Assembly (NCBI GenBank): GCA_903850425.1
Contig: CAINLR010000017.1
Location: forward strand, 105,074 to 169,073
Direction of reading: 5' to 3'
DNA from: an uncultured Verrucomicrobia subdivision 3 bacterium
GTDB taxonomy: Bacteria > Verrucomicrobiota > Verrucomicrobiia > Limisphaerales > UBA11358
DNA length: 64,000 nt
Shown here piece after piece: positions 37,033 through 42,723 of this stretch (the first letter of the stretch is position 1; the number at the start of each line of letters is the position of its first letter). Below the pieces are notes generated by a model. That model had not been told where the DNA came from. It made no database searches and saw nothing but the letters and a program-made list of their open reading frames with translations. Both the position numbers and the translations under genes were made by a program.

Positions 37033-37761
37033 ATGTCCAAAATCAAAATGGTGATGTTCGACCTCGCCGGCACCACGATCCGTGACGACAACGGTGTGCG
37101 CGACTGCCTCTACCAGGCGGCGGCGGAATTCAAGCTCCCAACCACGCCCGACGAAATCCAGTTGCACATGGGCACCAACAAAATTCATCTCTATCAATTC
37201 CTCATCGCCAAAGCCCGAGGCGCGGACGTGAATTTCCGCGATTTTGAAAAAGTCCAGTCGCCGGAAACGCTGGCACCCGCCACGCAGATTTTTCATCGCT
37301 ACGAGGAAATCATGCTCGCGTATTACCACCGCGAGGTGACGGAAATCCCCGGCGCGGCGGACACCTTCCGCTGGTGCCACGACCACGGCATCAAAGTGGC
37401 CACGGGCACGGGCTTTCACCGGCAGATCACCGAGGCGATCATGGACGGCCTCGGCTGGTTGCGCGATGGGTTGGTGGATATTTCTGTGGATGTCGAGCAC
37501 ACGCCACAGCAGCGCGGTCGTCCGGCACCGTTCATGATTTTTCACGCCATGACCCAGCTCGACATCCAGTGCGTGAACGAGGTGGTCAAAGTCGGCGACA
37601 CGCCGGCGGACATGCTGGAAGGGGCAAATGCCGGCTGCCGTGGCATCGTGGGCGTGTTGAGCGGCCCGCTGCCGGTCACCGCGTGGGGTGGCTACCGGCA
37701 CACGCATGTGATTCCAAGCGTGAAGGTGCTGCCACAATTGATCGAAGCCGAATTCGCCTGA
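37033..37761 (+). CDS. Phosphonatase-like HAD hydrolase
   Basis: 242 aa. HAD motif I MVMFDLAGTTIRDD (nucleophile D10; GTT as in phosphonatases), a helical cap (about 20-95) with MGTNK (K50) in the position where phosphonoacetaldehyde hydrolase has its Schiff-base Lys, motif II VATGTG (about 120) and motifs III/IV VGDTPADMLEGANAGC (about 188). This fits the PhnX-like phosphonatase group, which cleaves or dephosphorylates phosphonate-derived aldehydes or related phosphates. It is followed after 4 nt by a truncated phosphonate-associated alcohol dehydrogenase, which supports a phosphonate-catabolism context. The true substrate is uncertain. Confidence 0.85.
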   Translation: MSKIKMVMFDLAGTTIRDDNGVRDCLYQAAAEFKLPTTPDEIQLHMGTNKIHLYQFLIAKARGADVNFRDFEKVQSPETLAPATQIFHRYEEIMLAYYHREVTEIPGAADTFRWCHDHGIKVATGTGFHRQITEAIMDGLGWLRDGLVDISVDVEHTPQQRGRPAPFMIFHAMTQLDIQCVNEVVKVGDTPADMLEGANAGCRGIVGVLSGPLPVTAWGGYRHTHVIPSVKVLPQLIEAEFA

Positions 37762-37765
37762 ACTG

Positions 37766-38251
37766 ATGAAGACCAGCAAACTGGCGGTCTTTCACGCGAA
37801 TGGCTTGCCCTTCACTTATGAAACCGTGCCGGTGCCGGCATTGCGTGAAGGCGAAATTCTCATCCGCAACGAATACGTCACGCTGTGTCGCAGCGACCTG
37901 AATACTTTTTCCGGCAAGCGCATGGAAAAGACGCCGACAATTCTGGGGCATGAAATTGTTGGCGTGATTGATGACTTGGCTCCCGGCGCTCCGACGCGGG
38001 ATTGCCGGGGAACAGAATTGCGTCGGGGCGATCGCGTGACGTGGGCCATCTATGCCTCGAATCCTGATTCGTGGATGGCGCGCAATGGCATTCCGCAAAA
38101 AGGGCCGGACTTGTTCAAATATGGTCACGAACAGATCAACCCGGCCAGCACGTTGCACGGCGGTCTCGCCGAATACTGCGTGCTGCGCCGGCACAGGCCG
38201 GTGACCGGGAGGCGTGTCCTCAGATTGAGGACATTCAGGCTTGGTATTTGA
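37766..38251 (+). pseudogene. Truncated zinc alcohol dehydrogenase (phosphonate-catabolism-associated type)
   Basis: 161-codon frame. The first about 142 residues form the GroES-like domain of a medium-chain dehydrogenase: VTLCRSDLNTFSG (zinc Cys), ILGHEIVGVID (GHE, zinc) and GDRVTW. It resembles the family found beside phosphonatase-like hydrolases. After GGLAEYCVLRR (about 38190) the normal Rossmann NAD-binding half is absent and the frame runs through foreign sequence (RHRPVTGRRVLRLRTF) into the repeat at 38207. About 190 residues are missing, so the product cannot be an active dehydrogenase. The break coincides with the edge of the island. Confidence 0.75.
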
Positions 38252-38262
38252 GTTGGGCGAGC
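38207..38262. repeat. Left copy of hairpin-containing direct repeat flanking the island
   Basis: The copy contains a perfect 8-bp hairpin TGTCCTCA-GAT-TGAGGACA (38215-38233) and then TTCAGGCTTGGTATTTGAGT. Over the 32 bases from ACATTCAGG to GCGAGC it matches the copy at 42374-42427 at 29 positions, in the same orientation. In the minus direction it encodes LAQLKYQ-A-stop followed at once by the hairpin, so it may be the 3' end plus terminator of an element gene. Confidence 0.65.
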
Positions 38263-38459
38263 AGGCCTTCCGCGACGCACACATCGGTGCGCAGCCCTTG
38301 ATAGACGGGCTGATATCGGGCATGGGTCTCCCGGTGTGCGAATCGGTAACGCACGGCGACGACCTGACCGACCTTTGGGATGGGATGAGCCACAGGGCCG
38401 TGAGCGTGGCCCCGCCGGTGATGAGGATCGGGGTGAGATGTTGGTTTTCGATAGAGCAC
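38235..38459 (-). CDS. Short unidentified frame in element-like sequence
   Basis: Up to 74 codons from GTG 38459 with an AAAGGAG just upstream, ending VCVAEGLLAQLKYQA. The C-terminal residues LAQLKYQ recur in the right-hand repeat. Another frame over the first 40 codons also reads plausibly (IENQHLTPILITGGATLTAL), so a frameshift is possible. No family is recognised. It may be a remnant of a mobile-element gene. Confidence 0.3.
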   Translation of the reverse strand: MLYRKPTSHPDPHHRRGHAHGPVAHPIPKVGQVVAVRYRFAHRETHARYQPVYQGLRTDVCVAEGLLAQLKYQA

Positions 38460-38481
38460 TCCTTTCGGGGGGAAAGCAAAA

Positions 38482-38500
38482 CCCCGGCGGGCAGCCGGGG
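38482..38500 (-). terminator. Intrinsic terminator-like hairpin (minus strand)
   Basis: CCCCGGC (38482-38488) pairs with GCCGGGG (38494-38500). Read on the minus strand the stem is followed by TTTTGCTTT. It lies about 280 bp past the stop of the adenylosuccinate-synthetase-like gene and could terminate the triad operon, or act as an attenuator before the frame at 38459. Confidence 0.5.
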
Positions 38501-38778
38501 CTTTGGCGAGGGATGGTGGAAGGGATGCCAGGCGGATTAACCGCCGGCCACCCGACCAAGACTTAGGGCCGTGGTCATAGACTTATAGCACAAAAGGGAG
38601 GGCGGTTGCGCGCTGGCCGGGGTGCCTACGAACGGCGGCCAATAGTCAGGGTCTTGAAACCCAAATCTTTGAAAACCCAACACTAATTCAGACCGTTGTG
38701 CCGTCGGCCGGTTCGAACGAATATTATATGGTCGCTTATCATTCGGATGCTTCGGTTCATGCTCTCCCGCCTCGATAC
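38501..38778. other. Non-coding interval inside the island
   Basis: About 280 bp between the hairpin and the stop of the PurA-like gene. No open frame with family resemblance and no further repeat was seen. Confidence 0.4.
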
Positions 38779-40149
38779 TTATTTCTCACGCACGTCGGCG
38801 CAGGTTGCACCGTAAGAACAAACCACCACCGGTAATGAGGTTACCCCAGTAATTCGGTTTAAGAAATCCGACGCAGAACAAATCGGTTCTGCACAGTATT
38901 CCGGAAGGGCGGTTTGGAGCAGGTGCGTCAACGAAAGTTGATGGCCTAAATCCCTACTGGCTGCCAAAGCAAGCCGTTCTGCATATCGCGGCCTTTGTAA
39001 CGAAGGAGACGTGACGGAATAACGTTCGCACCACTTCAATGAAAGACCGCGCTGGAAAATATCCAGATGACTGACCAACAAACCGGTCAATTGACCTGCG
39101 GCTTCCAGCGCGTAGCGCAGCAGCAGAGCGTCGGGATGTCCACGCCGGAAATGGCCCTGCCAACCACTACTACTGTTGTGCGGTTCGGGGAGCAGATCGT
39201 CAAGGGATTCATCATGAGTCGGCAAAGGTCCGGCACCATGTCGGGTGAGGAAGGTGCGCATGACCCCGTAATGTTCGATCATGGACTCAATTCCAAAACG
39301 CGCTGCCAGCCCATCGACAGCCGCAGTGTTGATCGAACTCCAAGTCGTATGTGGATGAAAGCCTCGCCACTCATCAAGCAGCACTCCTTGAGCCCCTTCG
39401 AACAGGACACAACCGTCGTGCCTTAACTGATTACGGATCGTTTCGAATGCTGCCGGCGGACAATGGCGAGCCAGAGCTCGGGCGCTGGTCAGCCATTTTG
39501 CAGCCAAGGTTTCATCCTGCAGCATCTGAAATTCCGGGTTGAACCCGCCGCCGCTTCCGTTCGAGCATTGTGGCAAAAACTCGGCCAATAGCGTCTCTCT
39601 GATCGACTGAAGCTGGTCGAGCAGTGCCTCAGCTTCAGCCGTGGTGGCTGGTCGCAAGTCCGCATAACGGAGTTTCTGCGCTGGATGGTCCAGTGCGTGA
39701 CGAACCGTTTCACCCACGCCCACACCGCAAGTGCCATGGGCAGCTGCGCCGCGTAGAACTTCGCGCAACCGGCCCGCAGCTTGATGAAAGGGCGTGGTGA
39801 TTCGGCATTGCCCGTCGATTGTCAGGCGCGCGAGCGCATCGGTCACACCAGCTCTGCCGAGAACCTCGGCTTCGACCAGCAGAGCGGTCGGATGCACGAT
39901 CATTGGGTCAACCAACAACGTGCGCACACCCGGCGAGAAAGTGCCCGCTCCAAACTGTGAAAAGGTGTGGTGACGCGCTGGTAAGTTCGGGCTCGCTGGA
40001 GTTATCACATTATGACCAGCTTGGGCGCCGCCATTAAAGCGAACGACGGTATGTGCTCCCCAGCGCTGCGTCAGCGCGTCAATGAAATGCCCCTTGCCAC
40101 AATCGCCGAAACCAAGCCCCAGCACGGAAGCGTATCGCGTCGTGCGCAT
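38779..40149 (-). CDS. Divergent adenylosuccinate synthetase-like (PurA paralogue)
   Basis: 456 aa, close to PurA length. Core features: P-loop-like GFGDCGKGHFID (15-24; D16 matches the PurA catalytic Asp, with the next Glu replaced by Cys), GGAQAGHNV (40-48; catalytic His 46), HGTCGVGVGE (139-147; where PurA has T-x-RGIGP), LFEGAQGVLLDEW (249-261) and TRHGAGPLPT (302-311). The TTGRxRR aspartate-binding loop is replaced by SSSGWQGHFRRGHPD (326-340). GTP and a purine nucleotide are probably bound, but the amino-acid donor may differ or be absent (inference). It is last in an operon, 12 nt after the vWA gene. It is unlikely to be the housekeeping PurA. Phage-type PurZ is an alternative relative, but PurZ lacks the Asp kept here. 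Confidence 0.8.
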   Translation of the reverse strand: MRTTRYASVLGLGFGDCGKGHFIDALTQRWGAHTVVRFNGGAQAGHNVITPASPNLPARHHTFSQFGAGTFSPGVRTLLVDPMIVHPTALLVEAEVLGRAGVTDALARLTIDGQCRITTPFHQAAGRLREVLRGAAAHGTCGVGVGETVRHALDHPAQKLRYADLRPATTAEAEALLDQLQSIRETLLAEFLPQCSNGSGGGFNPEFQMLQDETLAAKWLTSARALARHCPPAAFETIRNQLRHDGCVLFEGAQGVLLDEWRGFHPHTTWSSINTAAVDGLAARFGIESMIEHYGVMRTFLTRHGAGPLPTHDESLDDLLPEPHNSSSGWQGHFRRGHPDALLLRYALEAAGQLTGLLVSHLDIFQRGLSLKWCERYSVTSPSLQRPRYAERLALAASRDLGHQLSLTHLLQTALPEYCAEPICSASDFLNRITGVTSLPVVVCSYGATCADVREK

Positions 40150-40161
40150 GCAGTCGAAAGG

Positions 40162-41127
40162 TTACTCGAACAACCGTTTCCACCATTGTCCGACCGGCGG
40201 CGTGGCGGCATAGGAGGATTTGGCTTGCGGCAGTTTCAGCAGCGCGGCGTAGTCCCGCAAGGCCCGGACTGTGGATCCAACGTGTTGCCGGTCGAAACCA
40301 TTGCTCGATATGATTCCACCCAAAGTGGCGAGGTCCGGAATGAGTTTCTCGGTCAAACCCACAATCGCCGCCGCTACGGCACAGGCGTCCGCTGGTGATT
40401 CCATGCAAATGGTGTGGTTGCCGAGCAGATTCCGCCAGCGTGCCTCACACCGTTTGCCACGTGCCAGATCGGGGATCAGGAAGAAAACGTGATACGTTTC
40501 AGCGGCTGCGGCGATGACTTCCTCCAGTGGAACGTCTTCATCCAGTTTTTCTCCCACGAGCGCTTCGATGTGATGACGCGAGACAGCGGGATAAGGAATT
40601 TCGTCGCCCGTCAGGAAGAGGTAACCCTTCCTTTTCCGCTTCACCCAGTTGTCCATGTCGGTGTGCTGGGCCGCGATATAAAAAGCAAGGTCGTAACTCT
40701 CCTCGCCTGTTCCGCCACCGTGACCTTCGAGATAGCTCCAGGTCAGCCATTGGTCCATCAGTTCCGCGGTGCTTTCAAACTGTCCAACTTGCAGCGGGGC
40801 TTGGTCTGAATTGGCGTCGCCGATCGCCATGAACATTAGTTGCGGATGCGCCACGCCGCACGCGGTGAGCAACTTCATAAAATTCGGCAGCTCCTTGGTC
40901 GCCAGCAGGTGTGGTATGTCGCCCATCGAGCCGGTGACATCGAGTGCAAAGATAATGCCGAGAGAGTCCGGATGATCTTTGCTGTCGCGGCACTCACGCA
41001 CCTTGAGACCTTTAGGATTCATCAGCGCGTGACACTGTCTTTGCGCAAAAACTTCCGACCCGCCCAGGTGAGTGCGACCGGCCGTGAGGGCAGCGTGTGC
41101 CGCCGCAGAATAATTTCCGTAGCCCAT
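40162..41127 (-). CDS. vWA-domain protein of the triad
   Basis: 321 aa from ATG 41127 (MGYGNYSAAAHAALTAGRTH); the open frame reaches 41244 but overlaps the upstream gene and the extension looks non-coding. The vWA fold covers most of the length. The MIDAS motif is FALDVTGSMGD (D63, T65, S67), with GGGTGEESYDLAFY (Thr/Glu region) and YLFLTGDEIPYP (third-site Asp). Such proteins bind Mg and act as protein-interaction switches in the cytoplasm; there is no signal peptide or membrane helix. The family pairs with kinases and phosphatases in TerY-type systems. It lies 34 nt after the pseudokinase gene. Confidence 0.85.
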   Translation of the reverse strand: MGYGNYSAAAHAALTAGRTHLGGSEVFAQRQCHALMNPKGLKVRECRDSKDHPDSLGIIFALDVTGSMGDIPHLLATKELPNFMKLLTACGVAHPQLMFMAIGDANSDQAPLQVGQFESTAELMDQWLTWSYLEGHGGGTGEESYDLAFYIAAQHTDMDNWVKRKRKGYLFLTGDEIPYPAVSRHHIEALVGEKLDEDVPLEEVIAAAAETYHVFFLIPDLARGKRCEARWRNLLGNHTICMESPADACAVAAAIVGLTEKLIPDLATLGGIISSNGFDRQHVGSTVRALRDYAALLKLPQAKSSYAATPPVGQWWKRLFE

Positions 41128-41161
41128 ATATTTTTGTTGGTTAGAGTTTTTTGTAAAAGCG

Positions 41162-42106
41162 TCAAATTTTAAGCGGCACAAACGCCGGCGGGCCGAACGC
41201 CGCGTTGGCTTGGGCTCGCAGCAATCCATCCAAACTTTCAGCACCGTGGGAATGGCAAAATTCTTGTTCCATGCTGGCCGTGGTTATCAGTTGAGCCAAG
41301 GCCCCAGGAACGCTGTCCGGCAAATTGCGATCACCAGCTCCGCACAATAATATCTGCACCACCCGGGCACTTCGACAGAGATCCAGAGCCTTTTCAGCTT
41401 GCGTCGCTCCCTTCCGGGCAGCAGCCCAACCAATGAGTCGAACGCCATGATCTTGCGGGTGAACCAAAGCATGTTCGGGCCGAACATCGCCATGACACCA
41501 TCCGTGGTTGTGAATGAAGCTTAGAACCTCCAACATGCGTCGCCAGATCCATACCGCATGCCGCGGATCGATACCAGAGGCGAAGCGCTCATTCAATGAG
41601 GCAAGGCTACCCCAGAACCCGCTTGGGTGCCGCAGCACCAGAGCCTGCTTGCCGTGGTCTCCTTCCACCGCACCAAGACCGATTACTTCCGGCAACAATT
41701 TTGAGAAATAAGCACCGGCTCCATTGGTATCAAGCTGTTGCAACTCTTCAACGATTTGCGCTTCGCGCGCGTAAAGCTCACCCGCTTTGGAAGAGGACGA
41801 AAGTTTGATGGTAACCAAGAGAGGCAGTGAATCAACGCGCCGTGCCAGATAAACTTGGGAAATTTCACCCTCACCCAGATGCTGTATTAATTGATAGCGA
41901 GCGGCGCCACACAATAGTGCGTCTAAACCACCCAATTCCCGGCGTGCCCGATTCAACGCCTGGCGAAATGAATCGCGCGTTACAATGGATTCCGTCTTGG
42001 TGATAAGCGAACCGCACGAGCCACAGTTTACCGATCTCCACCGAGCAATTCGCGGCAGCGGTGAGCCACACTGCGGACACGTCAAAGCAATCCAATTCGT
42101 TACCAT
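41162..42106 (-). CDS. Zinc-ribbon protein kinase-like protein (probable pseudokinase)
   Basis: 314 aa. N-terminal zinc ribbon with C10-x2-C13 and C28-x2-C31. From about residue 70 a protein-kinase fold: glycine loop LGEGEISQVYLAR, the ATP-site Lys in LLVTIKLSS, and a catalytic-loop equivalent CHGDVRPEHALVHPQD. The catalytic Asp (HGD) is kept, but the usual Asn is His, and the Mg-binding DFG is LIGWA, so catalysis is doubtful. The C-terminal about 60 residues are helical. No transmembrane segment, so it is cytoplasmic. The start has GGAAG five bases upstream. It is first in the operon. An active kinase with unusual metal binding cannot be excluded. Confidence 0.8.
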   Translation of the reverse strand: MVTNWIALTCPQCGSPLPRIARWRSVNCGSCGSLITKTESIVTRDSFRQALNRARRELGGLDALLCGAARYQLIQHLGEGEISQVYLARRVDSLPLLVTIKLSSSSKAGELYAREAQIVEELQQLDTNGAGAYFSKLLPEVIGLGAVEGDHGKQALVLRHPSGFWGSLASLNERFASGIDPRHAVWIWRRMLEVLSFIHNHGWCHGDVRPEHALVHPQDHGVRLIGWAAARKGATQAEKALDLCRSARVVQILLCGAGDRNLPDSVPGALAQLITTASMEQEFCHSHGAESLDGLLRAQANAAFGPPAFVPLKI

Positions 42107-42373
42107 GCGTCTTCCAATGGTGATGTGCTATCCTCCGGAGTAATGCGTGCCGGCGAGGCATCCCCTGCATGAAGGATCGCGTAAAGACTCATGGCATTTA
42201 GGTTTATGCCCGAGGATGGTCAACCACTCCACCAAAAGCAATCTTGTTCAACACCTGAGGACGCGGAGCGGACCCTTCGCTAGAATTACGAAACTCCTCC
42301 GCGCCTACCCACGACCGCCCGCCACACCCTGAGGGCATGACGGGTGCCGGTTGATCTGCTTCCCGTTTGAGAC
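42107..42373. other. Upstream region of the triad operon
   Basis: About 270 bp with GGAGGATAG 24 bases before the kinase-like start and a CCCGT-TTGAG-ACGGG stem just before the right repeat. No gene is supported. The promoter of the triad should lie here. Confidence 0.4.
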
Positions 42374-42427
42374 GGGGGCGTGTCTGCGAACGCATACATT
42401 CAGGGTTGGTATTTGAGCTGAGCGAGC
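42374..42427. repeat. Right copy of hairpin-containing direct repeat flanking the island
   Basis: Stem TGTCTGCG-AA-CGCATACA (42381-42398; one mismatch), then TTCAGGGTTGGTATTTGAGC to GCGAGC, in the same orientation as 38207-38262. The hairpin arms differ in sequence from the left copy yet still pair. In the minus frame it gives LAQLKYQP-stop. It abuts the truncated mazF. Confidence 0.65.
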
Positions 42428-42461
42428 CGCCGACTACGGAAATATCATGCTGGCGGTCTGG

Positions 42462-42551
42462 TTAGTTAACCGAAACTGCCACGCAAGGCCGCACTTTGGC
42501 CGCCATGCCCAAATCCACCATCACCACGTCGCCGCGACTAAAGCTTTTCAT
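42462..42551 (-). pseudogene. Truncated MazF/PemK-type toxin
   Basis: 29 codons from ATG 42551: MKSFSRGDVVMVDLGMAAKV, then RPCVAVSVN and TAA. RGDVV-x-VDLG...K-x-RPC-x-V-x-S is the N-terminal strand pair of MazF-family ribosome-independent mRNA endonucleases. The remaining about 80 residues are missing and the sequence changes to the flanking repeat. It overlaps the antitoxin end by 14 nt, the usual arrangement for these modules. Presumably inactive. Confidence 0.7.
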
Positions 42552-42723
42552 AGTCCACGTCGGGTGCCGGCCCAAGTGTTTCCCAAGTATCCGCCACGAG
42601 GGAATTCATCGGTGATTCAGACTCGCGTTGGCGTTCGAGGAATTTCAAATAATGGAGGACTTCGCGCACCACGGGTTCGGGTTGGCGTCTGATTTCTTCA
42701 ATCAAAATTTCCTGCACACTCAT
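42538..42723 (-). CDS. Small antitoxin-like protein (DUF2281 type)
   Basis: 61 aa from ATG 42723 (MSVQEILIEEIRRQPEPVVR); a longer frame to 42765 has no support. The opening amphipathic helix followed by EVLHYLKFLERQR and a disordered acidic tail (DTWETLGPAPDVDYEKL) fits short antitoxins of the DUF2281/VapB-like kind. It would bind and neutralise the MazF-like toxin encoded next, whose gene is now truncated, so it is an orphan antitoxin. The RNase HIII gene lies 42 bp upstream. Confidence 0.65.
   Translation of the reverse strand: MSVQEILIEEIRRQPEPVVREVLHYLKFLERQRESESPMNSLVADTWETLGPAPDVDYEKL

Follow-up and report, generated by a model that had tools for sequence, protein, structure and literature searches.

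The locus described here raises the question of what a paralogue of adenylosuccinate synthetase (PurA), a textbook housekeeping enzyme, is doing in one operon with a vWA protein and a zinc-ribbon pseudokinase. It lies in a stretch of 64,000 nucleotides, hereafter the window, from an uncultured Verrucomicrobia subdivision 3 bacterium (contig CAINLR010000017.1, positions 105,074 to 169,073). The answer put forward here is a tentative one, which may well prove wrong: from the pattern of conserved residues and genes, the trio could be a purine ligase driven by GTP, in which the N-terminal glycine of the vWA protein takes the place of free aspartate as the amine acceptor. The three genes are as follows:

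41162-42106, minus strand: pseudokinase with a zinc ribbon, 314 amino acids (PF00069, 35.5 bits; phrog_3043, 69.2 bits; motif table)
40162-41127, minus strand: vWA protein, 321 amino acids, with an ATG start, a MIDAS-type DVTGS motif and the N-terminus MGYGNYS (phrog_2971, 161.6 bits; AlphaFold2 (AF2) fold matches)
38779-40149, minus strand: PurA-like protein, 456 amino acids, an adenylosuccinate synthetase paralogue (PF00709, 178.9 bits; phrog_1211, 208.5 bits; residue tables)

All three genes are co-directional, with gaps of 34 nt between the pseudokinase and vWA genes and 12 nt between the vWA and PurA-like genes; the three-gene operon described in an earlier note on this DNA was thus confirmed from the coordinates. 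That note had treated the trio as a candidate system which would be refuted if the genes were not found together elsewhere, or if the PurA-like gene was the only PurA of the organism. Neither is the case. A full-length PurA (584 bits) is encoded on another contig of the same genome, and all three genes were found in 73 of 79 bacterial loci that had been picked by their vWA gene. The locus sets are composed of the best 80 per scan (the 79 bacterial loci, 80 viral loci also picked by vWA and 80 viral loci picked by the PurA-like gene). They hold many close relatives (approximately 30 Variovorax), the two viral sets share contigs, and the PurA profile used for the locus scans, having one canonical PurA row, can match ordinary PurA too; the family signature was confirmed in 212 unique PurA-like sequences, of 233 passing and 240 found.

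Within these sets the pairing of the vWA and PurA-like genes was near-obligate. The bacterial loci contained a PurA-like gene in 76 of 79 cases and a kinase gene in 76 of 79, the viral vWA-picked loci a PurA-like gene in 75 of 80 and a kinase gene in 22, and the viral PurA-like-picked loci a vWA gene in 77 of 80 and a kinase gene in 54. The PurA-like gene was located at most 150 nt from the vWA gene in 63/76 bacterial and 51/75 viral loci. Each of the three viral PurA-like loci without vWA has its PurA-like gene less than 1 kb from the locus start, i.e., at a contig end; further misses at contig ends were L075, L091, L114, and L130, and in L157 the contig runs on for another 2.9 kb. In L072, L076, and L159 the gene is truly missing within the locus. 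The genome of L076 (G169, contig C38, 26398-27862) has, away from the vWA locus that was fetched, a PurA-family gene split into two pieces, which by its lower score is probably the PurA-like one and is possibly decaying. Two family vWA genes were present in 13 of the 79 bacterial loci (L070, L071, L073, L074, L076, L077, L080-L085, and L087), these belonging to Myxococcota and relatives.

Carriers of the module are scattered among bacteria and also include large phages. A tblastn search of INPHARED (50,697 phage records) gave 207 matching records for vWA, 226 for PurA-like (in 203 of them over 80% or more of the query length) and 191 for the pseudokinase, with 188-189 records per gene coming from Mycobacterium phages; Rhizobium and Vibrio phages have the vWA and PurA-like genes. 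The phages Tonenili and Sauce (both Bixzunavirus), the two records in which co-presence was checked, carry all three genes in the order kinase, vWA, PurA-like, as in the window. Tree distances of vWA and PurA-like proteins agreed closely (r 0.86, n = 198; best of 200 permutations 0.10), as did those of kinase and PurA-like (r 0.94) and of kinase and vWA (r 0.90; both n = 128, without permutation). As a comparison of trees, this agreement shows co-inheritance, not contact. In both the PurA-like and the vWA trees, bacterial plasmid copies fall inside phage clades twice (Rhodococcus/Tsukamurella and Agrobacterium/Acetobacter), the printed supports of these mixed clades ranging from 0 to 0.98, and this nesting makes it likely that the module has been exchanged between phages and bacteria. 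A gene for a TROVE/Ro60-type protein lies no more than a few kb from the module in several phages, among them L094, L096, L097, L103, L136, L154, and L221, with Pfam having been run on the protein of L094 only.

The PurA-like protein retains the fold of PurA. Its AF2 model (pLDDT 95.9) has PurA entries as its best PDB matches, with template modelling (TM) scores by query length of 0.58-0.79, and its TIGR00184 score of 108.8 bits against a cut-off of 395.55 places it below the equivalog threshold. Residue tables were built from 31 canonical PurA and 212 PurA-like sequences, in literature numbering (the script numbering minus one). The residues D13, K16, H41, and Q224, which we take to be the catalytic residues of PurA, are present in 100% of the 212 relatives, and D333, the GTP-site Asp, is kept as well. 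The aspartate site differs from that of PurA. T301 and R305, presumably aspartate-site residues, are replaced by Gln in 98% of relatives and by mostly Phe or Leu (also Val), respectively; V273 is His in 100%, N38 is Gln in 99%, and T129 is Cys in 100% of bacterial and 80% of viral copies. A gap stands at the R143 position in 98% of the copies from bacteria and 59% of those from viruses. The R303 position is not conserved, with Arg in 28% of bacterial copies, where the column is uncertain through a one-residue gap, and with Arg outside the five commonest residues in viral copies. Passages of PMC8342488 describe R303 of canonical PurA as contacting aspartate and Arg R146 of the S-2L enzyme as contacting phosphate, R146 presumably being the equivalent of R143; PMC6136348 does not contain the E. 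coli PurA residue names that were sought for residue roles. Because the catalytic residues are kept and the aspartate-site residues are replaced, it is likely that the PurA-like protein performs the same activation of a 6-oxopurine, uses a different amine, and has an altered 5′-phosphate site.

A candidate for such an amine is found on the partner protein. The vWA protein of the window gave no Pfam match at E 0.1 and no solved structure by sequence search; its AF2 model (pLDDT 94.9) matches vWA and integrin-type folds. A 99-row alignment shows no variation at D63, S67, and D175 (the Asp and Ser of DxTxS and the GDE Asp), and T65 is kept in 96% of 151 diverse rows. A glycine directly follows the start codon in 238 of 239 vWA proteins (228 with ATG, 10 with GTG or TTG), compared to 8/233 for PurA-like and 2/70 for kinase controls, these start codons being predicted and the sequence set being partly redundant. 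The residues after this glycine mostly follow the pattern x-[GST]-x-[YWF]-[SDN]. In the AF2 model, residues 1-10 have a mean of 84, with later blocks mostly at 94-98, one at 88 and the C-terminus at 63-74. The vWA gene of phage Sauce (L292:1884-3671) has an in-frame insertion, annotated as an HNH endonuclease, four residues ahead of the GDE motif, and this is probably an intein.

The third protein appears degenerate as a kinase. The window copy has an N-terminal C4 zinc ribbon and keeps the VAIK Lys, the alpha-C Glu, and the HRD Asp, with the DFG Asp changed to Gly. By simple patterns over 159 copies, a C4 zinc ribbon is found at the N-terminus in 73 of 82 bacterial copies and an HPD stretch (as in J-domains) in 58 of 77 viral copies, one viral copy giving a weak DnaJ match. 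The alignment of kinase motifs, which is the better source, indicates that most copies retain the VAIK Lys and the alpha-C Glu, that the HRD position is Ala (40%) or Asp (39%) in bacteria and Ala (67%) in viruses, and that the DFG position holds Gly in 97% of the bacterial kinases, against Asp (61%) or Gly (32%) in the viral ones. The HRD Asp and DFG Asp expected together in an active kinase are not kept across the family, the window copy having the first without the second. A protein of approximately 120 amino acids, without a Pfam match, was identified by blastp upstream of vWA in 43/80 viral loci of the set L090-L169 (for example L148:7528-7896) and in 0/79 bacterial loci, and also in L311, one genome of a later draw; this small protein may stand in for the pseudokinase. 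A passage of PMC12363180 mentions the kinase of cluster C mycobacteriophages on its own.

In several lineages the module adjoins genes of NAD salvage or its NrtR-type repressor. In L015 (a Rhodocyclaceae metagenome-assembled genome) and L045 (Accumulibacter) the trio forms the tail of a PncA-PncB-NadE-NadM run with NrtR divergent; PncB, NadE, NadM, and NrtR of L015 have Pfam matches, and its PncA, without a Pfam match at E 1e-3, was named by eye. L049 and L050 have PncB-NadE-NadM followed by the trio, and in L042 NrtR is ahead of the trio with the NAD operon divergent from NrtR. Four Massilia loci have NrtR upstream of the trio (in L022 a single SPFH gene intervenes), NrtR is divergent on an Agrobacterium plasmid and split into two overlapping pieces on an Acetobacter plasmid, and plasmids of Rhodococcus and Tsukamurella encode a Nudix protein downstream. 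Among phages, L093, L095, L175, L184-L186, and L193 have NrtR and NadV near vWA, L095 and L184 being one contig. Altogether, NAD genes or NrtR lie beside the module in 9/79 bacterial vWA-picked loci and in 4/80 and 10/80 loci of the two viral sets. Among 369 genomes of one class drawn around the L015 genome there were five other vWA carriers, and in three of these an NrtR-like gene adjoins by blastp, a count which leaves out the L015 centre genome, chosen for its NAD genes. In several lineages the trio shares operons, divergent promoters, or neighbourhoods with NrtR-regulated NAD salvage and with the phage NAD-restoration operons (NadV, NadM), and differs from them in adding no known step of NAD synthesis; the run in L015 presumably reads as a full nicotinamide-to-NAD path already. 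A perfect palindrome, TAGTC-N5-GACTA, lies directly ahead of the kinase start in two actinobacterial plasmids (L007:6791-6809 and L009:6869-6887) and looks operator-like. When a shared NrtR operator was sought, the palindrome from Rhodococcus was found in 2/20 promoter regions (Rhodococcus itself and Tsukamurella). The NrtR of M. smegmatis is described in a passage of PMC6800001 as releasing DNA on ADP-ribose.

The ligase reading joins these observations into a sequence of five putative steps. First, the trio would be expressed when NAD is broken down, as suggested by those lineages in which its neighbours are repressors of the NrtR type or genes of NAD salvage. Second, the degenerate kinase, with its zinc ribbon or J-domain-like front, would act as an adaptor or nucleotide sensor and not as a kinase. 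Third, the PurA-like protein would take a hypoxanthine nucleotide and activate it by phosphorylation at the 6-oxo group, in keeping with its conserved residues, whose roles are presumably those in PurA; the residues that hold aspartate have been swapped for a near-invariant set of the family's own. Fourth, after removal of the methionine, the exposed amine of Gly2 of the vWA protein might attack the activated purine, giving a purine-tagged vWA protein. Fifth, and more speculatively, the tagged, Mg-binding vWA protein could have its targets in the metabolism of NAD or ADP-ribose and act on them when a phage infects the cell or NAD is under stress. Under this reading the near-obligate pairing, the invariant Met-Gly, the kept catalytic groups, and the replaced amine site would belong together. 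A more specific form of the proposal, of which we are decidedly doubtful, is a new post-translational modification in which a purine nucleotide is joined through C6 to the vWA N-terminal glycine and the tagged protein is used by phages and bacteria in a contest over NAD. The nucleotide so coupled is possibly a deaminated NAD-type dinucleotide, given that the residue meeting the 5′-phosphate in canonical PurA is gone. The presence of the module in phages as well as bacteria makes a part in taking over the host or countering its defences no less likely than one in defending it.

A number of points weigh against this proposal. The invariant Met-Gly could be structural instead. Covariation of the vWA tail with the pocket of the PurA-like protein gave no usable signal (198 pairs, effective number of sequences 162); the output consisted mostly of artefacts of invariant columns and speaks neither for nor against contact. 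As to NAD, 70/79 bacterial and 146/160 viral loci have no NAD or NrtR neighbour, and the nine NAD-linked bacterial loci are all titled Rhodocyclaceae, Accumulibacter, Massilia, or Janthinobacterium. Two of the five other carriers in the class around L015 are without a NAD neighbour, one of them being on a 5.4-kb contig. The window copy itself has no NAD gene among its identified neighbours, and the only NrtR_WHD match of the genome is on another contig. The background controls for phages (a TROVE anchor and an anaerobic ribonucleotide reductase (RNR) anchor, with 4 and 7 loci) were too small and were left uncounted, and no enrichment in phages is claimed. NrtR-family regulators can also sense other ligands, arabinose use being an example given in a passage of PMC4666351.

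The main rival explanation dispenses with a protein substrate. It holds that the PurA-like protein uses some free amine, not aspartate, to produce a modified purine nucleotide of small size or an analogue of NAD, with the vWA protein and pseudokinase only scaffolding or regulating it. Such a product is a possibility to be held with reserve: the kept catalytic residues, the replacement of the amine pocket by a near-invariant set, and the NAD neighbours in some lineages would all be accounted for. It leaves unexplained why the N-terminal glycine of the vWA protein is invariant and why vWA is near-obligate while the kinase is absent from many viral loci.

It is unlikely that the PurA-like protein is a catalytically idle sensor of GTP or purine which switches the vWA protein. 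The degenerate kinase of the same operon does show that enzymes with lost catalytic residues are retained here, but the full retention of D13, K16, H41, and Q224 would be unexpected in an idle sensor.

Quite improbable is a phospho-signalling triad of the TerY-P type with PurA in the place of the phosphatase, to which the earlier note had likened the cassette. TerY-P is defined, in a passage of PMC11090510, by a vWA protein, a kinase with a zinc ribbon, and a phosphatase. The trio resembles it in having a MIDAS-type vWA protein and a kinase fold with a zinc ribbon; however, the Ser/Thr kinase with a C-terminal zinc ribbon was not found, the ribbon here being N-terminal, the kinase is degenerate at DFG and is missing in 58/80 viral vWA-picked and 26/80 viral PurA-like-picked loci, and it is the PurA-like gene that is near-obligate. 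No PP2C was present among the three cassette genes, the neighbours of the fetched loci not having been scanned for it. The kinship with TerY-P was therefore not borne out. Nor was a defence cassette as such, which the earlier note had also suggested: with PADLOC at E 0.1 the vWA protein gave no match and the PurA-like protein only Cas11e (E 0.028), 0/87 PurA-like relatives matched at E 1e-5, and the module is also carried by phages. The pseudokinase gave 25 PADLOC matches among those listed, nearly all to models with a kinase. Nucleotide modification in the broad sense, another function that had been proposed, is the best fit among those suggested.

That the protein is an ordinary extra PurA making AMP is very improbable, in spite of its clear PurA homology and fold, as at least two PF00709 matches were found in 28 of 28 other host genomes tested (drawn from the 79) and the aspartate-site residues are replaced. 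Scarcely credible is a PurZ-type pathway making a modified base for phage DNA: the phage distribution, the kinship with PurA that is common to the phage-borne PurZ/PurZ0 of Z-genome phages, and the PHROG name 2-aminooxy adenylosuccinate synthetase would favour it, but the PurZ of SH-Ab 15497 has Ser at D13 and a basic aspartate loop, the opposite of the PurA-like family, NF038379 scores 26 against a cut-off of 300 bits, PurZ structures fit worse than those of PurA (TM by query length 0.45-0.57), and the module is found in bacterial genomes and plasmids.

The trio of the window looks like a horizontally acquired cassette. The features bounding it are as follows:

38208-38262, plus strand: left direct repeat, with a hairpin at 38216-38232 (repeat alignment)
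42374-42427, plus strand: right direct repeat, with a hairpin at 42385-42394 inside it and a further one on its left edge, at 42362-42376 (repeat alignment)
37766-38251, plus strand: truncated alcohol dehydrogenase, of which the N-terminal 143 residues are HpnZ-like and are followed by unrelated residues (TIGR03366, positions 1-119 of 315)
42465-42551, minus strand: MazF/PemK-like start, 29 amino acids, cut near the right repeat (PF02452, positions 2-29 of 109, E 0.047, a weak match under the cut-off)
42538-42723, minus strand: DUF2281 protein, 61 amino acids, overlapping the MazF-like start (PF10047, 27.3 bits against a cut-off of 26.5)

The 32-bp cores of the repeats (38231-38262 and 42396-42427) match at 91% and the longer alignment (38208-38262 and 42374-42427) at 78%. 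The 32-base pattern with at most three mismatches occurs exactly twice in the 6.9-Mb genome, and the 22-base core was matched twice in the window but never in 100 shuffled sequences. The cassette looks mobile, as the earlier note proposed; its description of hairpin-containing direct repeats was loosely right, the repeats being direct and the hairpins at the two sides differing in sequence. The same note had both adjacent genes cut at the repeats. This holds for the dehydrogenase, whose open reading frame of 161 amino acids has 72-76% identical matches in three genomes of the same genus with open frames of 371, 366, and 392 amino acids, and is less secure for the MazF-like stub with its sub-threshold match. 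The DUF2281 protein is possibly the antitoxin partner of the MazF-like start. A PhnX-like hydrolase together with the truncated HpnZ-like dehydrogenase (window 37033-38251) suggests a phosphonate-related operon broken by the cassette.

DNA similarity to L011, the nearest relative found, covers 38783-42105, i.e., the three coding regions and nothing beyond. At third codon positions the three genes have a GC content of 0.53-0.65, compared with 0.66-0.78 for five neighbouring genes, overall GC being alike. The vWA gene is rare, being found in 2/146 relatives, 3/387 genomes of the phylum, and 6/369 of another class, counts in which the genome that holds the window, or the one at the centre of the draw, is included.

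The folds of PurA, vWA, and pseudokinase are known; searches of an open-licence library aimed at the trio or its parts found no description of it, and no paper with adenylosuccinate synthetase, VWA, phage, and kinase together, in agreement with the novelty which the earlier note had claimed for the third partner. A further likeness is with ARG-centred systems (a Nudix regulator with a vWA chaperone), which in passages of the NAD review PMC9503650 likewise have an NrtR-like regulator near a vWA protein; the main text of that review has no mention of PurA or succinate. The main text of a jumbo-phage review (PMC7824862) has no mention of PurA or adenylosuccinate, and the genome paper of phage Pinkcreek (PMC9476963) has one mention of "PurA-like." In phage records the third gene is named "PurA-like adenylosuccinate synthetase" or "2-aminooxy adenylosuccinate synthetase" and the vWA gene mostly "hypothetical protein."

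The meaning of the finding lies in the conjunction of kept chemistry, an exchanged amine site, and a partner with an invariant N-terminal glycine, which points to a new ligase reaction. Since the module is present in Mycobacterium phages and adjoins NAD-salvage genes in several lineages, it may also bear on the NAD-centred conflict between phages and their hosts.

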